A stretch of DNA of 64,000 bases from Bacilli bacterium. GTDB lineage: Bacteria; Bacillota_I; Bacilli_A; RF39; UBA660. The notes under the pieces were generated by a model. It did no database searches, was not told where the DNA came from, and saw nothing but the letters and a program-made list of their open reading frames with translations. The position numbers and the translations under genes were made by a program. Shown piece after piece: positions 49,436-63,628 of the stretch. Positions within the stretch are counted from its first letter, which is position 1. Each line of letters starts with the position of its first letter. Location of the stretch: the NCBI GenBank assembly GCA_017544525.1, contig JAFYEA010000018.1, positions 129,307 to 193,306 on the forward strand. Reading direction: 5' to 3'.

Positions 49436-49466
49436 AAAAAGATAGTTTAATAAACTATCTTTTATT
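49436..49466. terminator. Bidirectional terminator
   Basis: AAAAGATAGTTTA and TAAACTATCTTTT flank a single-base centre; it ends the NlpC/P60 operon on the minus strand and possibly dfx. Confidence 0.75.
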
Positions 49467-49467
49467 A

Positions 49468-50790
49468 TTACCACATATTAGTTAAATTACCATCAATTTT
49501 ATAATATTTATCCATTAATACAACATGAGGGAATGTCTTTTGTAATTCTGACTTTTTAATCTTAGTAATTATTACTCCAATTTCATCATACCATAATGCT
49601 TGTGCAACATAGTAATAATTATTATCTTTTCCAACAATAATTCCAATATGTCCACCAGCAGCTTCACTATGTAATAAATCTCCTACTTTTATTTCATCAG
49701 AAATAGATATTTCTTTTGTAAGTTTCTTTACTTCACCAAAATCAGTTAAATCTTCTTTATCAGACCATCCAGCTCCGACATCTTTTACATCAAAACCTCC
49801 ATTTAGTAAAGCCCATGATACAAACCCACTACAATCAAGTCCATTATCTATATTTCTATGTGCTGGATAACTATAAATACTACATCCCCATGGTCCTTTA
49901 TTATTTGTTGTTGTTGATCCAGTTAAATTATTATATCTAGATGAATCTAAATAGAATCCAACATGATAATATCTTCCTTCACCATCTACTTTATTTGTTG
50001 TTTGTCTACCATTTTCATAAAAATAATTTATTCTATATGGGAAATCTAATGTTAAAAATCTTGCTGCTTCAACAACTCCAGCTCTTGTTTGATATCCGAC
50101 ATTTTCAATTCTAGATTTTAATATTTTATCAATTAAATCATTTTCTTCCTTAGAATATTTATTACAAGTTAAATATTTTTTATTATAATCATATCCTTCA
50201 GATGGTCTTTTTGTAATAATTGATGTTACAATTACTTTGGTTTCATACGATATATCTTTATATTTTAATTTTAATTGAGTTTCGCCATCTTTTAGACCGA
50301 CAATAATACCATTATTATTAAAAGATATAATATCTTTATCATAATCAATTATTTTTATTTTATTACCATTTCCAATTAGATAATTATAATAATTATATTT
50401 ATCTCCTTGAGCAATATATAAAGTATTAATGTTTTTAATATCAAAATAAATATCTTTTTTCGAATTATATATTATTTTACTATTGTTTTTAATGTATAAA
50501 ATACTTTTTTCAACATAATCTAAAATACATTCATTATTATTAGATTTAGTCCAATTATCATTATCATTTGGTATTTTATTATCTAAAATACAATATAATT
50601 CTTTATCATCACCATATAGATGAACTGTTAGTTTATTGTTGTTGTATTCAATATATTCTACAACATTTTTTTTAAATACTAAGAAATAAAATTTTACTAT
50701 TATATAAATAATTACAAATAGTATAAATAATAATTTAAATGTATTAAATATAATTCTTATTTTTCTTTTTAATCTTCTTCTTTTAGCCAT
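49468..50790 (-). CDS. NlpC/P60-like cell-wall hydrolase 1 (last of three paralogues)
   Basis: 440 residues. Basic N-terminus and one membrane helix (residues about 15-40), an extracellular region with a bacterial Ig-like Big_2 module ending VIVTSIITKRPSEG, then a hydrolase domain. The domain has NGLDCSGFVSWALLNGGF with the catalytic Cys and GGHIGIIVGKD with the catalytic His. It probably cuts peptidoglycan peptides outside the membrane. The Big_2 module is more degenerate than in the two upstream paralogues. GGTGAT precedes the ATG at 50790, which lies 5 bases after the stop of the second paralogue. Confidence 0.88.
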   Translation of the reverse strand: MAKRRRLKRKIRIIFNTFKLLFILFVIIYIIVKFYFLVFKKNVVEYIEYNNNKLTVHLYGDDKELYCILDNKIPNDNDNWTKSNNNECILDYVEKSILYIKNNSKIIYNSKKDIYFDIKNINTLYIAQGDKYNYYNYLIGNGNKIKIIDYDKDIISFNNNGIIVGLKDGETQLKLKYKDISYETKVIVTSIITKRPSEGYDYNKKYLTCNKYSKEENDLIDKILKSRIENVGYQTRAGVVEAARFLTLDFPYRINYFYENGRQTTNKVDGEGRYYHVGFYLDSSRYNNLTGSTTTNNKGPWGCSIYSYPAHRNIDNGLDCSGFVSWALLNGGFDVKDVGAGWSDKEDLTDFGEVKKLTKEISISDEIKVGDLLHSEAAGGHIGIIVGKDNNYYYVAQALWYDEIGVIITKIKKSELQKTFPHVVLMDKYYKIDGNLTNMW

Positions 50791-50795
50791 ATATA

Positions 50796-52139
50796 TCACC
50801 ACATATTAGTTAAATTACCATCATTTTTATAATATTTATCCATTAATACAACATGAGGAAAATGATTTTTAAGCTTTGATTTTTTAATTTTGGTAATTAC
50901 AACTCCTTTTTCTCCATACCACAGTGCCTGAGCAACATAATAATTATTTTTATCTATACCAACGATTATACCAATATGTCCCCCGGCTCTTTCAGAATGG
51001 AGTAGATCTCCAACTTTTATCTTGTTAGAAGTAGATAGGGAAGTGGTGATCTTTTTAACATCACCATAATCAGTTAAATCTCTTTTATTAGACCAACCAG
51101 CACCGACATCTTTTACATTGAAACCTCCATTTAATAGAGCCCATGATACAAATCCACTACAATCAAGACCATTATCCATTTTTCTATGAGCAGGTTTTGA
51201 ATAAAGAGAGCATCCCCAAGTCTTAGGACCGGTTCTTGACCCAGTAATATTTTTATATCTACTACTATGAAGATAAAAACCGACATGATAATATCTTCCT
51301 TCACCATCAACATTGTTAGTTGTTTGTCTACCATTTTCATAAAAATAATTTATTCTATATGGAAAATCAAGTGTTAGAAATCTTGCTGCTTCTACAACTC
51401 CCGCTCTTGTTTTATATCCAACACTTTCAATTCTACTTTTTAATATTTCATCTATTAAGTCATTATCACTTCTACTATATTTATTACATCCTAAATTTTT
51501 TTTCTTATAATCAAAACCTTTAGTAGGCCTATTTGTTATTAAATTTGTAACATGTACATCAATATATTCATCTTTATCACCAATTGTTGCATGAATTTTA
51601 GTTATACCATTTTTAATTCCAGTAATTATACCTTTATCTGATACAGTAGCTATTTTATCATTTTCGCTATAATACTTTAATGTATCATTAATATCACCAA
51701 CATATTCATAATTTGCAACTATTGTATATTTTCCTTTTATAGCTAAATATACTTTTCTTTCATTATTTATTTTTAATGTTATCACTTTACTTATATAATT
51801 TATATAATTATCTTTTAAAACAATATTACTAACTTTATTATTCTGTTTTGGTGATAGACTATTAAATAACAAATACAAAACTAATAATATTACAATTATT
51901 ATAATAAGAATATACTTATAATATGATTTTTTAGAATCATACTTTTTGCTTGTTTTTTTATCTTCTATATTTTCTATTTTCTTTTTTGTAGATTGTGATT
52001 TAGAGCTTACTTTTTTAACGTTAGATTTTTTATTTTGTGTTGTTTTTTTCTTATTAGTAGATTTCTTTTTAGTAGTACTTTTCTTCTTTTTAATATTTTT
52101 CTTCTTTTTTACTACTTTTCTTTTCTTTTTCTTTGCCAT
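50796..52139 (-). CDS. NlpC/P60-like cell-wall hydrolase 2 with a poly-lysine tail
   Basis: 447 residues. The first 70 residues, inside the cell, are more than half Lys with Thr/Ser/Asn between, followed by one membrane helix, a Big_2 module (YYSENDKIATVSDKGIITGI) and the same Cys/His hydrolase domain as its neighbours (LDCSGFVSWALLNGGF, GGHIGIIVGID). The Lys-rich tail could bind nucleic acid or acidic lipids. Good ribosome site AAGGGGGA. Middle gene of the operon. Confidence 0.88.
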   Translation of the reverse strand: MAKKKKRKVVKKKKNIKKKKSTTKKKSTNKKKTTQNKKSNVKKVSSKSQSTKKKIENIEDKKTSKKYDSKKSYYKYILIIIIVILLVLYLLFNSLSPKQNNKVSNIVLKDNYINYISKVITLKINNERKVYLAIKGKYTIVANYEYVGDINDTLKYYSENDKIATVSDKGIITGIKNGITKIHATIGDKDEYIDVHVTNLITNRPTKGFDYKKKNLGCNKYSRSDNDLIDEILKSRIESVGYKTRAGVVEAARFLTLDFPYRINYFYENGRQTTNNVDGEGRYYHVGFYLHSSRYKNITGSRTGPKTWGCSLYSKPAHRKMDNGLDCSGFVSWALLNGGFNVKDVGAGWSNKRDLTDYGDVKKITTSLSTSNKIKVGDLLHSERAGGHIGIIVGIDKNNYYVAQALWYGEKGVVITKIKKSKLKNHFPHVVLMDKYYKNDGNLTNMW

Positions 52140-52152
52140 AAATCCCCCTTAA

Positions 52153-53529
52153 TTAATACCACATTTTTGTTAATTTGCCATCTTTTTTGTAATAATCGTC
52201 CATTAACATAACATAATAATATCTTTTAAACAAATTCTTTTTAGAGTAGGGAATAATAACAACTGCTACATTAGGCGGGGTCCATAAACTTTCTGCTACA
52301 TAGTAATAATTATCATCTTCACCAACAATGATAGCAATATGCCCACCATTTACACCTCCAGAACTCAATAAATCCCCAACTTTTACTTTACCTGATTTAA
52401 CTACATTAGCATTGAATTTTATTCTTTTTCCATAATCAGTTAAATCTTTATGAGATGCTAAACCGGCTCCAATATCTCCAACATCGAAACCACCTTGTAA
52501 CATAACCCATGATACAAAACCACTACAATCAAGACCGTTAGGCCTATATCCATGCGAAGGTCTACTATATAAACTGCACCCCCACGTCTTAGGACCAGCA
52601 GATCTTTTTTTAATTCCTTTATATCTACTTTCATCTAAATATAAACCAACATGATAATATCTTCCTTCACCATCAACACCATTTGTTGATCCTCTTCCAT
52701 TTTCACTAAAATATCTGATTTTATATGGAAATTCTAATGCTAAAAATCTTGCTGCTTCAACAGTAGCAGCTCTAGTTTTATATCCAACATCATTAATTCT
52801 GTCTTTTAATATTTCATCTAACAAATCATTATCTGCTTTTGAGTGCTTCCCACAAGATAGATATGGTTTTTTATTATTATATTTTTTCGGTCTAACAGTA
52901 ATCAAATTGGTAACTATTACTTCAACACCTTTTTTTACATCTCCAACTTTAGCATATATTGTTGTATTACCTTTTTTTATTCCTTTAACATTTCCATTAG
53001 AATCTACTGTTGCTATTTTATCATTTTCACTATACCATTCAACTTTGTCATCAATATATTCTAAATCTCCAATATAATCATATCTTACGCTCAAAGAATA
53101 TTTTCCTTTAATAGCAAGATATATCTTTTCTTTACTAACACTAACAGTTGTTACTCTTGAAAATTTATTTAAATCACTAACATTAAATATTTTATCATCT
53201 TCGTTTTTTAAAAATGCATAATACTTGTTTTTATCCATTTTAAAACTAAATTCATTATTTTCTACTTTTTTCCAATTAGAATCGTATTTTAATGGTAAGT
53301 CATTATCATTTTTGTATAAATAATATATATTACTATTAGAACTATCTTCAGAATCTACTTTAACTGTTAAAATATTATCATCATTTATAGATATATCTTT
53401 AACAATAGGAGTAGGTGCTTCAGTTTCAATAAAAGATATTTGTTTGTTTTTAAAATCACATAAAAATATAGTAATAAAGATTACTAAAATAGTTGAAAAA
53501 ACAATTATCTTCATTATATTATTTCTCAT
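52153..53529 (-). CDS. NlpC/P60-like cell-wall hydrolase 3 (first gene of the operon)
   Basis: 458 residues. One membrane helix near the N-terminus, an extracellular stretch, a Big_2 module (WYSENDKIATVDSNGNVKGI) and the hydrolase domain with LDCSGFVSWVMLQGGF and GGHIAIIVGED. It is the most divergent of the three (YHVGLYLDESRY, SLWTPPNVAVVIIP). The start at 53529 is inferred from the promoter at 53537-53565: only 7 bases separate the -10 box from the ATG and no ribosome site exists, so the message looks leaderless. Confidence 0.85.
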   Translation of the reverse strand: MRNNIMKIIVFSTILVIFITIFLCDFKNKQISFIETEAPTPIVKDISINDDNILTVKVDSEDSSNSNIYYLYKNDNDLPLKYDSNWKKVENNEFSFKMDKNKYYAFLKNEDDKIFNVSDLNKFSRVTTVSVSKEKIYLAIKGKYSLSVRYDYIGDLEYIDDKVEWYSENDKIATVDSNGNVKGIKKGNTTIYAKVGDVKKGVEVIVTNLITVRPKKYNNKKPYLSCGKHSKADNDLLDEILKDRINDVGYKTRAATVEAARFLALEFPYKIRYFSENGRGSTNGVDGEGRYYHVGLYLDESRYKGIKKRSAGPKTWGCSLYSRPSHGYRPNGLDCSGFVSWVMLQGGFDVGDIGAGLASHKDLTDYGKRIKFNANVVKSGKVKVGDLLSSGGVNGGHIAIIVGEDDNYYYVAESLWTPPNVAVVIIPYSKKNLFKRYYYVMLMDDYYKKDGKLTKMWY

Positions 53530-58281: not shown

Positions 58282-58294
58282 TCTCTTCTATTTT
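58265..58294. terminator. Hairpin between converging genes
   Basis: TAGAAGAGA (58265-58273) pairs with TCTCTTCTA (58282-58290); the T tail is weak on both sides. Confidence 0.55.
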
Positions 58295-59382
58295 AAGTAC
58301 CATAATTCTTTATTATCTTTAAATACTTTTTTAATGATTCCACCCATAATACATTCTTCTTTATCGTAAATTACACATGCTTGACCAGGTGTTACTGCTT
58401 TACTATTTTTATATTTAACTCTTATATGATTATTATCAATATATTCAATAGAAACAGGTATATCCTCACTTCTATATCTAAATTTAGCTGTTGCTTCAGT
58501 AGGCTTTTTATCAGATATATAATTCATATCCTCAATTATAGCTTCATCTGATAATAAATATTTTGAATCTTCACCATATGCTACATATAATGTGTTAGTT
58601 TTTGAATCTTTTCCACATACATAATGTCTTTTATCATCTCCAGAAAGACCAACATTTCTTCTTTGACCAATAGTATAATTCATAAGACCTTTATGTTTTC
58701 CAACTATCTTTTTAGTTTCAACATCTACGATATCTCCACTTTTACCTTTTAAATAATTAGCAACAAAGTTTTGATAATGTCTTTCTCCAATAAAGCATAT
58801 TCCAGTAGAATCTTTTTTATCGTAAACTGGTATATTATTTTCTTTTGCAATTTTTCTTACTTCAGGTTTAGTTAGATGCCCAATTGGAAATAATACATCT
58901 TTTAATTGTTCTTTAGACACTTGTGATAAAAAATATGTTTGATCTTTATTGGAATCAATTCCTCTTAAAAGTCTTCCGTTATCCATTCTGGCATAATGAC
59001 CTGTTGCTATTTTATCAGCGCCTAATTTTTTAGCTTCTTTTTTAAATAAATCAAACTTTATATATTTATTACACATTATGTCAGGATTAGGAGTCCTACC
59101 CTTTTCTAATTCATCCAAAAAATATTTAAAAACGTCATCCCAATATTCTTTTATAAAATCAACTCTATATAAAGGAATGCAAAGCTCATCGCATACATTT
59201 TTAGCATCTCTATAATCTAATTCTTGCGGACAAACATCTTCTGTTATTCCTTCTTTATCGTTATTGATGTTAGAATCCCAGTTTTTCATAAAAAGACCAA
59301 CTACATCATAACCTTCTTTTTTTAATAAATAAGCAGCAACAGCAGAATCAACTCCACCACTCATACCAACTACTACTTTCAT
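58288..59382 (-). CDS. mnmA: tRNA-specific 2-thiouridylase MnmA
   Basis: 364 residues. PP-loop GMSGGVDSAVAAYLL at the N-terminus, catalytic Cys in PDIMCNKYIKF, second Cys in STGICFIGERHY, and the central GQRRNVGLSG. It inserts sulfur at U34 of tRNA-Lys, -Glu and -Gln. AAAGGA precedes the ATG. Its usual partner cysteine desulfurase is not beside it. Confidence 0.98.
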   Translation of the reverse strand: MKVVVGMSGGVDSAVAAYLLKKEGYDVVGLFMKNWDSNINNDKEGITEDVCPQELDYRDAKNVCDELCIPLYRVDFIKEYWDDVFKYFLDELEKGRTPNPDIMCNKYIKFDLFKKEAKKLGADKIATGHYARMDNGRLLRGIDSNKDQTYFLSQVSKEQLKDVLFPIGHLTKPEVRKIAKENNIPVYDKKDSTGICFIGERHYQNFVANYLKGKSGDIVDVETKKIVGKHKGLMNYTIGQRRNVGLSGDDKRHYVCGKDSKTNTLYVAYGEDSKYLLSDEAIIEDMNYISDKKPTEATAKFRYRSEDIPVSIEYIDNNHIRVKYKNSKAVTPGQACVIYDKEECIMGGIIKKVFKDNKELWYLK

Positions 59383-59405: not shown

Positions 59406-59978
59406 TTATAGCACATATTTAATAATATTAGAAGTAATATATATTTCAAATATTGAACTAAGTAATAACAATCCTAATGATATTAAAAAAATATAAAAAT
59501 AATTTCTTGAAAAAGATTTGATATTAATCATTTTATTATTCTTAATAGATCTATATACTTTCAATGAAAAATTAATAGCATAATAAGATAATAATAAAAA
59601 TATTAATTCATTTAATAAAACAGTAGGAAACAGCAAAATAAAGCTAATTAAGAGACCTTTTGTCTTAAAAATAACAATTATACTAAATAATGTTAATCCA
59701 AGAGAAATACCTCTATATAGTATTATAAATGGTATTATAAACGAAAACATAAATATAATTCCTAATATCCATATAATTATAGAATATTTATAGTTTTGTA
59801 TTAATGATATTAGTAAACTATTAGAATAATTTAATTTGGATTCTTTTAACAAAGAAAAGTAATTAATAATACTATCATTTGAATTATCTAATATAAAATA
59901 ACTTATAATTCCTAAAATAAAACCTACAATTAATAATATGACTAATGCTTTAAATAATCTACTTTTTATAATTTTCAT
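59406..59978 (-). CDS. SpoIIM-family membrane protein
   Basis: 190 residues, five membrane helices, with the FIILYRGISLGLTLF and LLFPTVLLNELIFLLLSYYAI segments typical of stage II sporulation protein M. In Bacillus SpoIIM belongs to the septal peptidoglycan machine with SpoIID/SpoIIP, neither present here. No ribosome site; TATAAT (minus strand, 59984-59989) is 5 bases before the ATG with TTGTCA 19 bases further up, so probably leaderless. Confidence 0.8.
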   Translation of the reverse strand: MKIIKSRLFKALVILLIVGFILGIISYFILDNSNDSIINYFSLLKESKLNYSNSLLISLIQNYKYSIIIWILGIIFMFSFIIPFIILYRGISLGLTLFSIIVIFKTKGLLISFILLFPTVLLNELIFLLLSYYAINFSLKVYRSIKNNKMINIKSFSRNYFYIFLISLGLLLLSSIFEIYITSNIIKYVL

Positions 59979-60193: not shown

Positions 60194-60216
60194 AAAGAGG
60201 CAAAACCTCTTTTTTA
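60193..60216. terminator. Bidirectional terminator
   Basis: AAAAGAGG, five-base loop, CCTCTTTT and T run between the small membrane protein and the phosphatase gene. Confidence 0.9.
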
Positions 60217-60876
60217 TTTTATACTTTTAAAATAAGGAAGATCATTAAATTCAATCAGTTCAATAGAATATAATTTATCTTTGTCAAAAATCAGTTTAAA
60301 TACTTCAGGAGCATTTAATTTTTTATTAAAAAACACTTTATCATTAAATGATAATTTAAGTTCTCTATCTTCATTTATTGATTCTAATTTACACCATTTT
60401 AATAATGAAAATGTAATTGCATATCCATGAGTAAATATTGCTATTCTTTTACTCTCATTTTCTTTTAAAACTTTATTTAATGCTCTATGAAATCTTTTAC
60501 TTACTTCTTCTTGGGATTCACCACCTTTAGTTTTAAATTTTTTATCAAGATATTGTCTTTCAAACCAATCATTATATATATCACAATTTGGTGTTCCAAC
60601 TTTTCTTTCATTAAATCCTTTATCAATATTTAGTTTAAGATTATGCTTAAAACACATATATTTAGCAGTAGCCATTGTTCTAGCACAATCGCTTGAATAT
60701 ACTGCATCAATATTTTGTAATTCTTTTTCATCAGCAAGTATTTCTGCTCTTTTTTCTCCCTCAACACTTAAAATAATTTTTAAATCCTTAATGTGATTAT
60801 TTTTAAATCCTCTATATATATCAATATCATCATTTGAATATTTAACAGAATGTCTAATTAAATAAACTGTTGTCAT
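60214..60876 (-). CDS. Histidine phosphatase (phosphoglycerate-mutase-like)
   Basis: 220 residues from the start at 60876, set by AAGGAG just upstream. VYLIRHSVKYS is the RHG-type catalytic motif with His (RHS here), YSSDCARTMATA and FNERKVG follow, and the second catalytic His is in IAIFTHGYAITF. Broad phosphatase or cofactor-dependent mutase family; substrate unknown. Confidence 0.9.
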   Translation of the reverse strand: MTTVYLIRHSVKYSNDDIDIYRGFKNNHIKDLKIILSVEGEKRAEILADEKELQNIDAVYSSDCARTMATAKYMCFKHNLKLNIDKGFNERKVGTPNCDIYNDWFERQYLDKKFKTKGGESQEEVSKRFHRALNKVLKENESKRIAIFTHGYAITFSLLKWCKLESINEDRELKLSFNDKVFFNKKLNAPEVFKLIFDKDKLYSIELIEFNDLPYFKSIK

Positions 60877-60945
60877 AAAAAACTCCTTAACTAATCTTAT
60901 TATAACATAAAAAAACTTATAAATAAGCATTTATAAGAATTATTT

Positions 60946-60992
60946 AATGGTGGCCCGCTAGGGATTCGAACCCTAGACCCACCGATTAAGAG
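60946..60992 (-). repeat. Left attachment repeat (tRNA-Lys fragment)
   Basis: Identical over 47 bases to 63551-63597, including the CCA end, T-arm and part of the anticodon loop of tRNA-Lys. The remaining 5' half of a tRNA is missing, so it is not functional. Confidence 0.93.
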
Positions 60993-61081
60993 GTGGAAAG
61001 GTATACATGATTTATGTATATTTACATATCCAATATTTCCTTATATTTACTAGCAATTTTTCAATTACTACGATTTTTTAA

Positions 61082-61372
61082 TTAGTTAATTAACTCTCTA
61101 GTGCCAAAATCTGGTGCCATAGTTTTTTCTACAAGTGCATCAAATATTTGTGCTGCTTCACTTAGTTGTTCACTTGAAACTAAGGCATATAAATCCATAG
61201 ATGTTGAAATAGATGCACGACCTAAGCATGTACTAATGGTTTTTAGATCTTGTCCTTTTTCATTTCTCACAGTTGCATTGGTGTACCTTAAACCGTGTAG
61301 AGTTACTTTTTTTAAATTATATCTTTTAATCATTTTACTAATAATTTTAGTTAATGTATCTGGATGCTGGTA
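61082..61372 (-). pseudogene. Integrase remnant (tyrosine recombinase C-terminus)
   Basis: About 96 codons on the minus strand, starting without a start codon at YQHPDTLTKIISK and ending DFGTRELIN. The piece matches the catalytic end of Tn916-type integrases: LHGLRYTNATVRNEKGQD, LKTISTCLGRASISTSMDLYALVS. The HxLR motif survives, but the His after Arg is Tyr and the His of the LGH motif is Arg, and the N-terminal two thirds are gone. Its position just inside the left repeat is where an integrase gene should be. Confidence 0.85.
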
Positions 61373-61550
61373 TTATTTTGATGGTTCATGAAATCCATTA
61401 AAAAGATGGCAAAAACTTAGTTGGAGTGGCGGAAATAACTGATTCTACTTCAAGAGTCATGGATGTATGCTTGCAAATACAACTCAAACTATAAATGGTA
61501 AAAAATATCACTTTGATTCTAATGGTGTATGTGATTCAGAAGGCTGTTAA
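61362..61550 (+). pseudogene. Remnant of a choline/cell-wall-binding repeat protein
   Basis: One frame reads GCWYYFDGS-stop-NPLKRWQKLSWSGGNN-stop-FYFKSHGCML, then INGKKYHFDSNGVC, ending at a TAA. These are two to three cell-wall-binding (choline-binding type) repeats. Both interruptions are TGA; the second replaces the conserved Trp of WFYF. The rest of the gene is missing, and it abuts the integrase remnant, so a deletion or recombination joined two broken genes here. Confidence 0.8.
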
Positions 61551-61558
61551 AAGCATAA

Positions 61559-61591
61559 TAAAACCCTTAAAACTTATTTAAGGGTTTTTGT
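61559..61591. terminator. Bidirectional terminator
   Basis: AAAACCCTTAAA and TTTAAGGGTTTT around a five-base loop, with T runs outward; it ends the ADP-ribosyltransferase gene. Confidence 0.85.
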
Positions 61592-61592
61592 T

Positions 61593-63422
61593 TTATCTTA
61601 CTAAGACTTCATCTTGCTCAGGTATTTCCATTGCTTTTTTTGCTTTATTATTTCTTAATTTTATCTTATTAAATACAATTTTTTCTGAGCTTGTTTTATC
61701 TCCTAAAGTAGCTTCATATGATTGTTCAAATTCATAAGTAAATTTACTAGAATCTAATATAACTTCTTTTTGTTCATCAGGGAATGGGAAATTCTCATCC
61801 TCTACTCCATCCCATATTTCACGAGTAATAAATATTACTGGTGTACCTTTTGGTACTTTTATTTCTGCAATTACCCTTGGACTAACTCCATCAGATCTAT
61901 TTCTTGCAAAGAATAAAGCTTTATATGGATCTGTTGTTGTAGATAATATAGGAGCATCAAACACGTAACTTGCATTCCCTATTCCTCTATATAATACTAA
62001 ATCTTCAGTAGTTCTACATTTAGATAAAGCACTGTCTAGTTCTCCTAATGATTCTAAAACTAATTCTCTATATTCTTCAAATAATTCTTCTTCAGTAGCT
62101 ACTCCATCAAGATAAGGTTTGAATTTTTTAAATTTACTATCAGCCCTAGTCGTTGCTTCTTTAGCTTTTCCTCCAAATGGACTAAAGAATCTATTAGAAA
62201 CAGCTTCTCTAATCTGAATTTTGTATTCGTTAAATCCTGTTCTAATTAAATCATCAAATACTTTTGTATCTTTTATATCTTCAAGTTTTAAATTATTATC
62301 TCTTAAATATTTTTTAACAGAATTAATTGCTCTATATAATTGAGTTTTATATAACATAATAGCTGTTTTCTCTCTATCAGTTAATAACTCTGCTTGTCTT
62401 CTTTGTATTTCAATTAATGACTCTTTTTTAGGCTCTTTAGATCTATTTTTTGGAGAAAAATGAGCATCTGGCATAACTACATATTGCTTTTCAGGTTTTT
62501 CTTCAAAATTAGGTTGTTCTACAAACTCAATACTATTTAAAATTGAAGGTATATCACGCAATGATTTAGAAGTATTAACAAGTCTTACTTTATCTTCAAG
62601 TTTATTGTAAGCATCACTTACAGTTTTCAAATGTTCTTCTAATTTATCATTATATCTACCTAAAGAACTATCAAGTAATGAAAAGAACTTGCTAAATCTA
62701 CTTAATGCAACTGCATCCATTTTTGATATATCTAAACTTGTAAAATCAAGTCTTTTTGAATCTTCAATAACTGATTTTTGTAATTTCTCTATTTCTTCAT
62801 CAGTTAGTTTCATATCTAAAGCATCAATTTTTTCTTCATCAAAATAAGTCATTATAGTAAAGAAAAGATTTCCTTTAATCTTCTTAAGATAAATACTTAA
62901 TCTACCAAATAATGTCTTTGACTCTTCTTTCTTAGCTTTTAGTAATTTAGATAAAGCTGCATAATTTCTTTCATAATCTTTAATTCTATGCTTATTTCTT
63001 ATAATACTAGCAGATACACTGTTTATATTAATAATGCTTTCACGTAATTTATTCCTTGTTGTAGAAACATTTTCATTATACTCTTTTTCTAATTCATCAT
63101 AGGTAAATATTTGACCTTCTTCATCAATTATTTCTGGATAATGGCCTTTTATAGTTACAGAGTATTTCTTACTATTTATTAAATTATTCTTTTTACATAT
63201 TTCCAAATACTTTTTTAATCTTTTTAAAAAATCTATTTCATTACCATATAAAGGATAAGAAAATGTTTTTGAAATAGTAACATATCCCGTAGGACTTAAT
63301 TCTTTAACACTTATAGTACATTTACCTCTAATACTTTTATCATACATAAAAACACTATCATAAGTAAAATAACTCAAATCTCTATAAAGCATATAAATAT
63401 CTTGAAATAATCTATCATCCAT
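61593..63422 (-). CDS. ADP-ribosyltransferase-like protein with a long helical N-terminus
   Basis: 609 residues, no signal peptide or membrane helix. Residues about 1-110 form a small mixed domain (GYVTISKTFSYPLYGNE ... GQIFTYDELEKEY). Residues 110-340 are long charged helices. From about 346 a VIP2/C3-type ADP-ribosyltransferase domain follows: LLTDREKTAIMLYKTQLYRAINS, then LVLYRGIG with the NAD-binding Arg (about 479), ILSTTTDPYKALFF as the STS motif (about 494), IKVPKGTPVIFI, and FPDEQKEVIL (550-553) as the Gln/Glu-x-Glu motif. All key residues are present, so it is likely active. TAGGTGAT precedes the ATG. It is the only intact gene of the tRNA-Lys island. A defence, toxin or phage-derived role is inference. 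Confidence 0.8.
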   Translation of the reverse strand: MDDRLFQDIYMLYRDLSYFTYDSVFMYDKSIRGKCTISVKELSPTGYVTISKTFSYPLYGNEIDFLKRLKKYLEICKKNNLINSKKYSVTIKGHYPEIIDEEGQIFTYDELEKEYNENVSTTRNKLRESIININSVSASIIRNKHRIKDYERNYAALSKLLKAKKEESKTLFGRLSIYLKKIKGNLFFTIMTYFDEEKIDALDMKLTDEEIEKLQKSVIEDSKRLDFTSLDISKMDAVALSRFSKFFSLLDSSLGRYNDKLEEHLKTVSDAYNKLEDKVRLVNTSKSLRDIPSILNSIEFVEQPNFEEKPEKQYVVMPDAHFSPKNRSKEPKKESLIEIQRRQAELLTDREKTAIMLYKTQLYRAINSVKKYLRDNNLKLEDIKDTKVFDDLIRTGFNEYKIQIREAVSNRFFSPFGGKAKEATTRADSKFKKFKPYLDGVATEEELFEEYRELVLESLGELDSALSKCRTTEDLVLYRGIGNASYVFDAPILSTTTDPYKALFFARNRSDGVSPRVIAEIKVPKGTPVIFITREIWDGVEDENFPFPDEQKEVILDSSKFTYEFEQSYEATLGDKTSSEKIVFNKIKLRNNKAKKAMEIPEQDEVLVR

Positions 63423-63550
63423 ATCTTAATCACCTACTATAAATAGTATATCATATAAAAATAGACAATTCTATCGTTTCTATTATCTTAATTAAACAAT
63501 TACTAGTTTCAAATAAAAAATGCCCAATTAAGGACATTTAAATAACCAAT

Positions 63551-63597
63551 AATGGTGGCCCGCTAGGGATTCGAACCCTAGACCCACCGATTAAGAG
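63551..63597 (-). repeat. Right attachment repeat (inside intact tRNA-Lys)
   Basis: The 47-base partner of 60946-60992; it contains the 3' part of the functional tRNA gene, which is therefore restored after integration. Confidence 0.93.
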
Positions 63598-63628
63598 TCG
63601 GTTGCTCTACCATCTGAGCTAGCGGGCC
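63556..63628 (-). tRNA. tRNA-Lys(CUU)
   Basis: Cloverleaf on the minus strand: acceptor GGCCCGC/GCGGGCC, anticodon arm ACCGA-CTCTTAA-TCGGT with anticodon CTT, T-loop TTCGAAT, and encoded CCA at 63553-63555. It is the integration site of the island. Confidence 0.95.

Follow-up and report, generated by a model that had tools for sequence, protein, structure and literature searches.

A 2.6-kb insert at the 3' end of tRNA-Lys, with a single intact gene that encodes an ADP-ribosyltransferase (ART), lies towards the end of a 64,000-nucleotide stretch of an uncultured Bacilli bacterium (GTDB lineage Bacillota_I; Bacilli_A; RF39; UBA660; assembly GCA_017544525.1, contig JAFYEA010000018.1, positions 129,307 to 193,306), the whole of which is called the window here. 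The presence of this insert with its ART cargo in two species of the uncultured lineage, and its recent spread, are well supported. We hold with moderate confidence that the insert is the remnant of a tRNA-Lys element that has recently spread between species, and that its ART is a cytoplasmic effector of the defence type. The insert belongs to a known kind of element, while the architecture of the protein is rare.

A degraded element at the tRNA-Lys 3' end

The insert is bounded by a perfect 48-bp direct repeat (Table 1). No other direct repeat in the window matches exactly over such a length (the scan covered direct copies), and the longest exact repeats in ten order-1 Markov sequences measured 17-19 bp. 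An earlier reading of the DNA made from the letters alone (the sequence-only reading) had described a 47-base perfect repeat bounding 2.6 kb; the perfection of the repeat and its derivation from tRNA-Lys stand, while the length is corrected to 48 bp and the coordinates agree within 1 bp. A tyrosine-recombinase element that uses the tRNA-Lys 3' end is the simplest account; both copies of the repeat and an integrase stub are kept in the window. Like prophages, satellites and islands that integrate into tRNA genes, the insert has a tRNA 3'-end direct repeat, an integrase at one end and cargo at the other; unlike these, it has only one intact gene left and its integrase is truncated.

The 83-residue integrase stub aligns with positions 119-167 of Phage_integrase (E 9e-4; 19.4 bits, below the Pfam cut-off of 27.1) and with a PHROG integrase (E 3e-10). 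Its frame, traced upstream, hits a stop near the start of the adjacent lysin-like tail, which suggests a deletion joint between the two. Since the integrase is reduced to this C-terminal stub, the element is a remnant and not active. The stub matches 198 phage and 126 plasmid records, all at less than 60% identity (37% for the top-ranked phage match), and 15 of the 18 genomes of the genus, the best by E-value being 31% identical; it has no relative in IMG/VR. The lysin-like tail is interrupted by two in-frame stops, and the piece past the last stop matches Choline_bind_1 (E 2e-5); the similarity of the tail to a PHROG endolysin is weak (E 0.0077). The sequence-only reading was thus right to call both the integrase and the cell-wall-binding gene wrecked. 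No open reading frame (ORF) resembling a phage structural or packaging gene, of the kind that would mark a prophage, is found within the 2.6 kb. Cargo genes are common in prophages between the lysis genes and the attachment site, and the position of the lysin-like tail between the ART gene and the integrase suggests a former prophage with the ART in this cargo position.

The ART frame is fully open, with its own ribosome site and terminator, as had been noticed from the sequence. The leader also contains an extended -10-like element, TGATATACT, which was picked by eye and not called by the promoter scan. Five terminator-like sites were observed between 60850 and 63700 against 0.6 expected.

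Recent transfer and selection

A close copy of the ART gene was found in one named record, a contig of a metagenome-assembled genome (MAG) of an "uncultured Tenericutes bacterium" (G001), where it also lies behind tRNA-Lys. From the 5' end of the tRNA (63628) to position 61700 the window and G001 show 12 differences, a single one of them in the ART leader, and over ART codons 1-596 the nonsynonymous and synonymous divergences (dN and dS) are 0.006 and 0.003, respectively. Immediately upstream of the tRNA, 20 differences (gaps counted) fall within 62 bases, and farther out there is no match at that place. The mnmA genes share 79.9% DNA identity with a dS of 1.01, and dS is 0.705 for another chromosomal gene; these values place the two chromosomes in different species. 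That a second species of the genus has the block behind its tRNA-Lys almost unchanged points to a recent move between species, in which, judged by these comparisons, the tRNA 3' end and the ART edge appear to have travelled together. In both species the edge of a mobile element next to the tRNA is preserved and breaks off cleanly at the tRNA, which makes the moving unit visible.

Insertion at the tRNA-Lys 3' end, as the sequence-only reading had it, is borne out by the perfect repeat in the window and by a comparison of G001 with a relative (G393) that lacks the insert on the downstream side. In G393 the homology with G001 starts 26 bp after the tRNA, and in G001 the corresponding sequence starts ~196 bp after the ART stop; this places ~2.1 kb of G001 at, or at most 26 bp from, the 3' end of the tRNA.

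The sequence-only reading had taken the survival of one gene among ruins as a sign of its usefulness to the host, and had proposed dN/dS on the transferase as a check. Neither line holds for the window and G001. Eight codons differ within codons 1-596, seven by replacement and one silently, in agreement with neutral single-base mutation (~79:21); the copies are too alike for selection to be testable on this pair, and no sign of selection can be read from their dN and dS. Moreover, the stubs suggest that the rest of the element was probably lost mainly by deletion, so one intact gene is not surprising. These changes and the broken state of the rest of the element are what would be expected if the ART were neutral, recently arrived cargo heading to decay, with nothing selected, a view that is compatible with the other readings and that we consider possible but somewhat unlikely. 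What speaks against it are the full-length frames in the window, G001 and the proteins P0001, P0002 and P0004 (these three are known as predicted proteins only, which biases towards intact frames; P0003 has 478 aa), together with catalytic residues that do not vary among the long forms and a dN/dS of ~0.45 between the homologues of G042 and G266 (65% identical; dN 0.224, dS 0.495). This pair, and the open frames and catalytic residues kept by distant homologues, are the better evidence and would make the longer-term case for function.

As a separate observation, ART residues 184 and 187 (62862-62873, minus strand) differ in all three near-identical copies (window/G001/P0001: G/I/R and F/R/G); at each site the codons of the window and G001 differ at two bases. 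This may be local hypervariability or assembly noise.

The ADP-ribosyltransferase and its possible function

The assignment of an ADP-ribosyltransferase domain made from the sequence is supported by catalytic motif alignments, by the Pfam match of a homologue and by matches of the predicted fold. The putative catalytic residues Arg479, Ser494-Thr495 and Gln551-x-Glu553 conform to the Arg / Ser-Thr-(Ser/Thr) / (Gln or Glu)-x-Glu motif and are invariant in two overlapping long-form alignments (7 sequences each). When short relatives are added (15 sequences), Arg479 and Ser494 remain invariant, Thr495 and Glu553 are conserved in at least 90% and Gln551 in fewer. The window protein has no PF03496 match at E <= 10, while 3 of the 7 members of one long-form alignment (A2) match the family at E <= 1 and the G266 homologue lies above its cut-off (28.5 vs 23.4). 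In the structural model, the C-terminal domain consists of blocks mostly at 70-90 on the predicted local distance difference test (pLDDT), poor at ~401-440, and its structural matches are to the ART fold; the N-terminal half (~1-330) is alpha/beta with coiled-coil and is poorly modelled (mean pLDDT 46).

Full-length forms are rare. The ART is present in 1 of the 18 genomes of the genus; 5 of 386 family genomes match (4 with long forms), as do 14 of 385 order genomes (3 with long forms). Eleven of these 14 have no long form, and in nine of them the match is a protein of 226-270 aa; eight of the nine were taken into a further alignment (A3), which left out L064 (nearly the same as L061), L067 and L069. 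Three protein searches returned three proteins each, four in all (P0001-P0004), and in two of the searches scoring was limited to the 7994 candidates with the most words in common, so that relatives may be missed. P0002, a full-length homologue with 84% identity, matched only G001, G042 and G053 among 391 relatives. This rare full-length ART family occurs in uncultured bacteria with genomes of ~1-1.6 Mb. The literature consulted provided precedents and no paper on the window gene. The order also contains single-domain ART-like proteins of 226-236 aa in several genomes (L059, L061, L063, L065, L066 and L068), which align with the C-terminal half of the window ART; the one in L059 adjoins a dihydrouridine synthase (Dus) gene. 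The gene labels histidine-phosphatase, SpoIIM, mnmA, GerQ, Dus and Mu-F derive from Pfam; other names of the relatives' neighbours were given by eye unless scored.

C3-like and VIP2-like ARTs (PF03496, R-S-E type) are the natural comparison. The window ART differs from them in its 330-residue N-terminal half without a family match, in its setting on a decayed mobile element and in having no secretion signal: no signal peptide of the kind expected of a C3-like secreted exoenzyme is evident, the N-terminus not being hydrophobic and the highest 19-residue mean hydropathy being 0.94 (judged from hydropathy, with no dedicated predictor).

Phage proteins offer another comparison, since T4 Alt and ARTs fused to head proteins are precedents for virion or takeover enzymes. 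The ART could accordingly be a phage enzyme that modifies host proteins at infection, left over with no benefit to the host. The ART model does match phage ARTs and minor capsid proteins with ART domains, and one protein of the same order (L067, 1366-2964, in G295) bears ADPrib_exo_Tox (E 8e-23) behind a head-protein domain, Phage_Mu_F (E 2e-15). We consider this origin unlikely, as Pfam assigns the window protein neither a Mu-F domain nor any other of capsid type (the N-terminal model being of low confidence), three long homologues lie, by eye, outside any structural gene cluster, and the ART gene has its own leader and terminator.

Delivery to neighbouring bacteria as an antibacterial toxin (a polymorphic toxin or type VII effector) is suggested by Lmo0066 (8za7), an effector-immunity ART of Listeria according to its entry title, which ranks first among the sequence-profile matches in the PDB (E 0.0011) and is also one of the top structural matches; WXG100 genes, moreover, occur in 13 of the 18 genus genomes, 6 of them over the cut-off. 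In neither the window nor G001 is the ART gene adjoined, on its strand, by an ORF of at least 30 aa that looks like a gene for an antitoxin or an immunity protein, Pfam detects no MuF or LXG-type domain, and hydropathy gives no signal peptide, which together make this explanation quite improbable. The other precedent, Bxa of Bacteroides stercoris, is described as a prophage-encoded ART with an N-terminal MuF domain and immunity proteins (PMC11699363). The window ART resembles Bxa in lying on a prophage-like element, and differs from it in that neither a MuF domain (by Pfam) nor an immunity ORF was found.

The reading that fits the protein best is of an effector that acts alone in the cytoplasm under restraint by its N-terminal half, and a role in defence or competition is a reasonable guess. 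DarTG is an anti-phage ART system. So is CmdTAC, in which CmdT has an antitoxin and a chaperone (PMC11618068); the window ART may likewise be used against phage, and it is unlike both systems in that its gene stands alone and matches no PADLOC model. Phages and their satellites are reported to carry anti-viral genes (PMC9122126). We propose that the element was of the tyrosine-recombinase kind, most likely a temperate phage or phage satellite, and that on integrating at the tRNA-Lys(CTT) 3' end it would have restored the tRNA from a copy of that end which it brought along; its tRNA-proximal edge would have carried the ART gene together with a leader and terminators belonging to that gene. Nearly all of the element would then have been lost by deletion, except the ART gene and the ends of the lysin-like and integrase genes, and the window copy would no longer be able to move itself. 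The ART protein would most likely be cytoplasmic (it has no signal peptide or membrane segment) and act alone; its N-terminal half would sense or restrain, and its C-terminal R-S-E domain, on phage infection, would use NAD+ to ADP-ribosylate a target belonging to the cell or the phage.

The neighbourhoods of distant long homologues provide a lead. A type I restriction subunit and a KAP NTPase lie near the G266 homologue, and Fic, ASCH and weakly Mrr-like genes near that of G042; two distant members near restriction- or Fic-type genes point to a possible stand-alone ADP-ribosylating defence gene. It is a rather doubtful extension of this lead that the ~600-residue proteins form a small undescribed one-gene defence family, with a variable N-terminal sensor and a C3-like ART held in check, released by phage and shuttled via the tRNA-Lys 3' end.

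Several observations weigh against a recently spread element with a defence-type cargo. The long homologue of G053 adjoins a spore-coat GerQ gene and other ordinary-looking genes, with Fic, KilA-N and recombinase genes farther off. The enrichment of PADLOC matches near distant homologues (at E <= 1e-15, 7 of 10 neighbours match, vs 1 of 10 genes taken from farther down the G042 contig) is suggestive, the counts becoming 8 of 10 vs 5 of 10 at E <= 1e-3 and the ten neighbours being a biased set, picked by eye as defence-like. ART relatives are absent from IMG/VR (by sequence and alignment), phages and plasmids at the limits used, so that the phage origin is argued from the integrase stub and the weak endolysin match. 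ART codons 597-606 and the sequence past the gene diverge between the window and G001. Upstream of the tRNA, G001 and G393 match over only 35 bp, so the comparison holds for the downstream side alone and the tRNA of G001 has itself moved. The tRNA 3' end, repeated at both ends in the window, has no second copy in the G001 genome (one match at <=3 mismatches, the tRNA itself); either the far end was deleted or the block arrived by homologous exchange at the identical tRNA. G001 is a MAG, moreover, and a join at an identical tRNA is a classic misassembly spot, though the far end of the G001 insert carries no repeat of this kind.

The tRNA-Lys locus and other features of the window

Table 1. Features of the insert and its chromosomal surroundings in the window
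Feature	Position	Strand	Remarks
mnmA, after the SpoIIM-family gene	58288-59382		Pfam tRNA_Me_trans, E 1e-80
SpoIIM-family gene, after the histidine-phosphatase gene	59406-59978		Pfam SpoIIM, E 3e-12
Histidine-phosphatase gene, chromosomal neighbour past the insert	60214-60930	-	Pfam His_Phos_1, E 4e-21
Distal 48-bp repeat copy	60945-60992	-	tRNA-Lys 3'-end remnant beside chromosomal flank, attR-like; perfect match to 63550-63597
Tyrosine-recombinase integrase, C-terminal stub	61082-61333	-	83 aa, N-terminal part missing; Pfam and PHROG
Endolysin-like tail, 3' remnant with choline-binding-type cell-wall-binding repeats	~61362-61550	+	Two in-frame stops
Terminator-like hairpin	61560-61588	both strands readable	Lies 3' of both ART gene and lysin-like tail
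Intact ART frame	61593-63422	-	609 aa; N-terminal half ~1-330, C-terminal R-S-E-type ART domain ~330-593
Leader of the ART gene	63423-63517	-	AGGTG 8 nt before ATG; TGATATACT
Terminator-like hairpin directly behind tRNA-Lys	63518-63539	-	Within the near-identical block that includes the ART gene
Proximal 48-bp repeat copy	63550-63597	-	Within the intact tRNA, attL-like
Intact tRNA-Lys (anticodon CTT), target gene	63553-63628	-

The locus was compared in 16 of the 18 genomes of the genus (G387 and G394, with no convincing tRNA-Lys(CTT) match, were left out), some of them on short contigs (G397, 6.4 kb; G391, 7.8 kb; G398, 12 kb). The order tRNA-Lys, variable stretch, SpoIIM-family gene and mnmA was seen in 11 of the 16 loci, as past the distal repeat of the window; G392 also has a histidine-phosphatase gene between tRNA-Lys and the SpoIIM-family gene. 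The genes behind tRNA-Lys vary in the genus, which bears on the other cargo that the sequence-only reading had proposed to look for in the same slot, and no second copy of the tRNA end was found among the 16 loci. The empty sites sought by the same reading were obtained in part: for G001 by comparison with G393, on the downstream side, and for the window by gene order. The direct DNA match of the window's distal flank to the relatives' tRNA flanks is near noise (a score of 39 in G392 vs 37, the highest of 200 shuffles; 29 vs 27 in G398), and the control side also passes (29 vs 28 in G389), hence the argument from gene order.

At the window end, tRNA-Lys(CTT) on the minus strand is followed by tRNA-Met and tRNA-Leu on the plus strand. 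In G395 and G192 (L075 and L076) tRNA-Lys is inverted relative to tRNA-Met/Leu and mnmA, and in G001 it lies ~77 kb from mnmA; the neighbourhood is a mobile one.

Elsewhere in the window, positions 49466-52897 comprise three tandem related stretches, in which 300-nt reference copies at 49910, 51232 and 52598 are 82% and 72% identical and two stretches share an exact repeat of more than 40 bp; this is a paralogous array.
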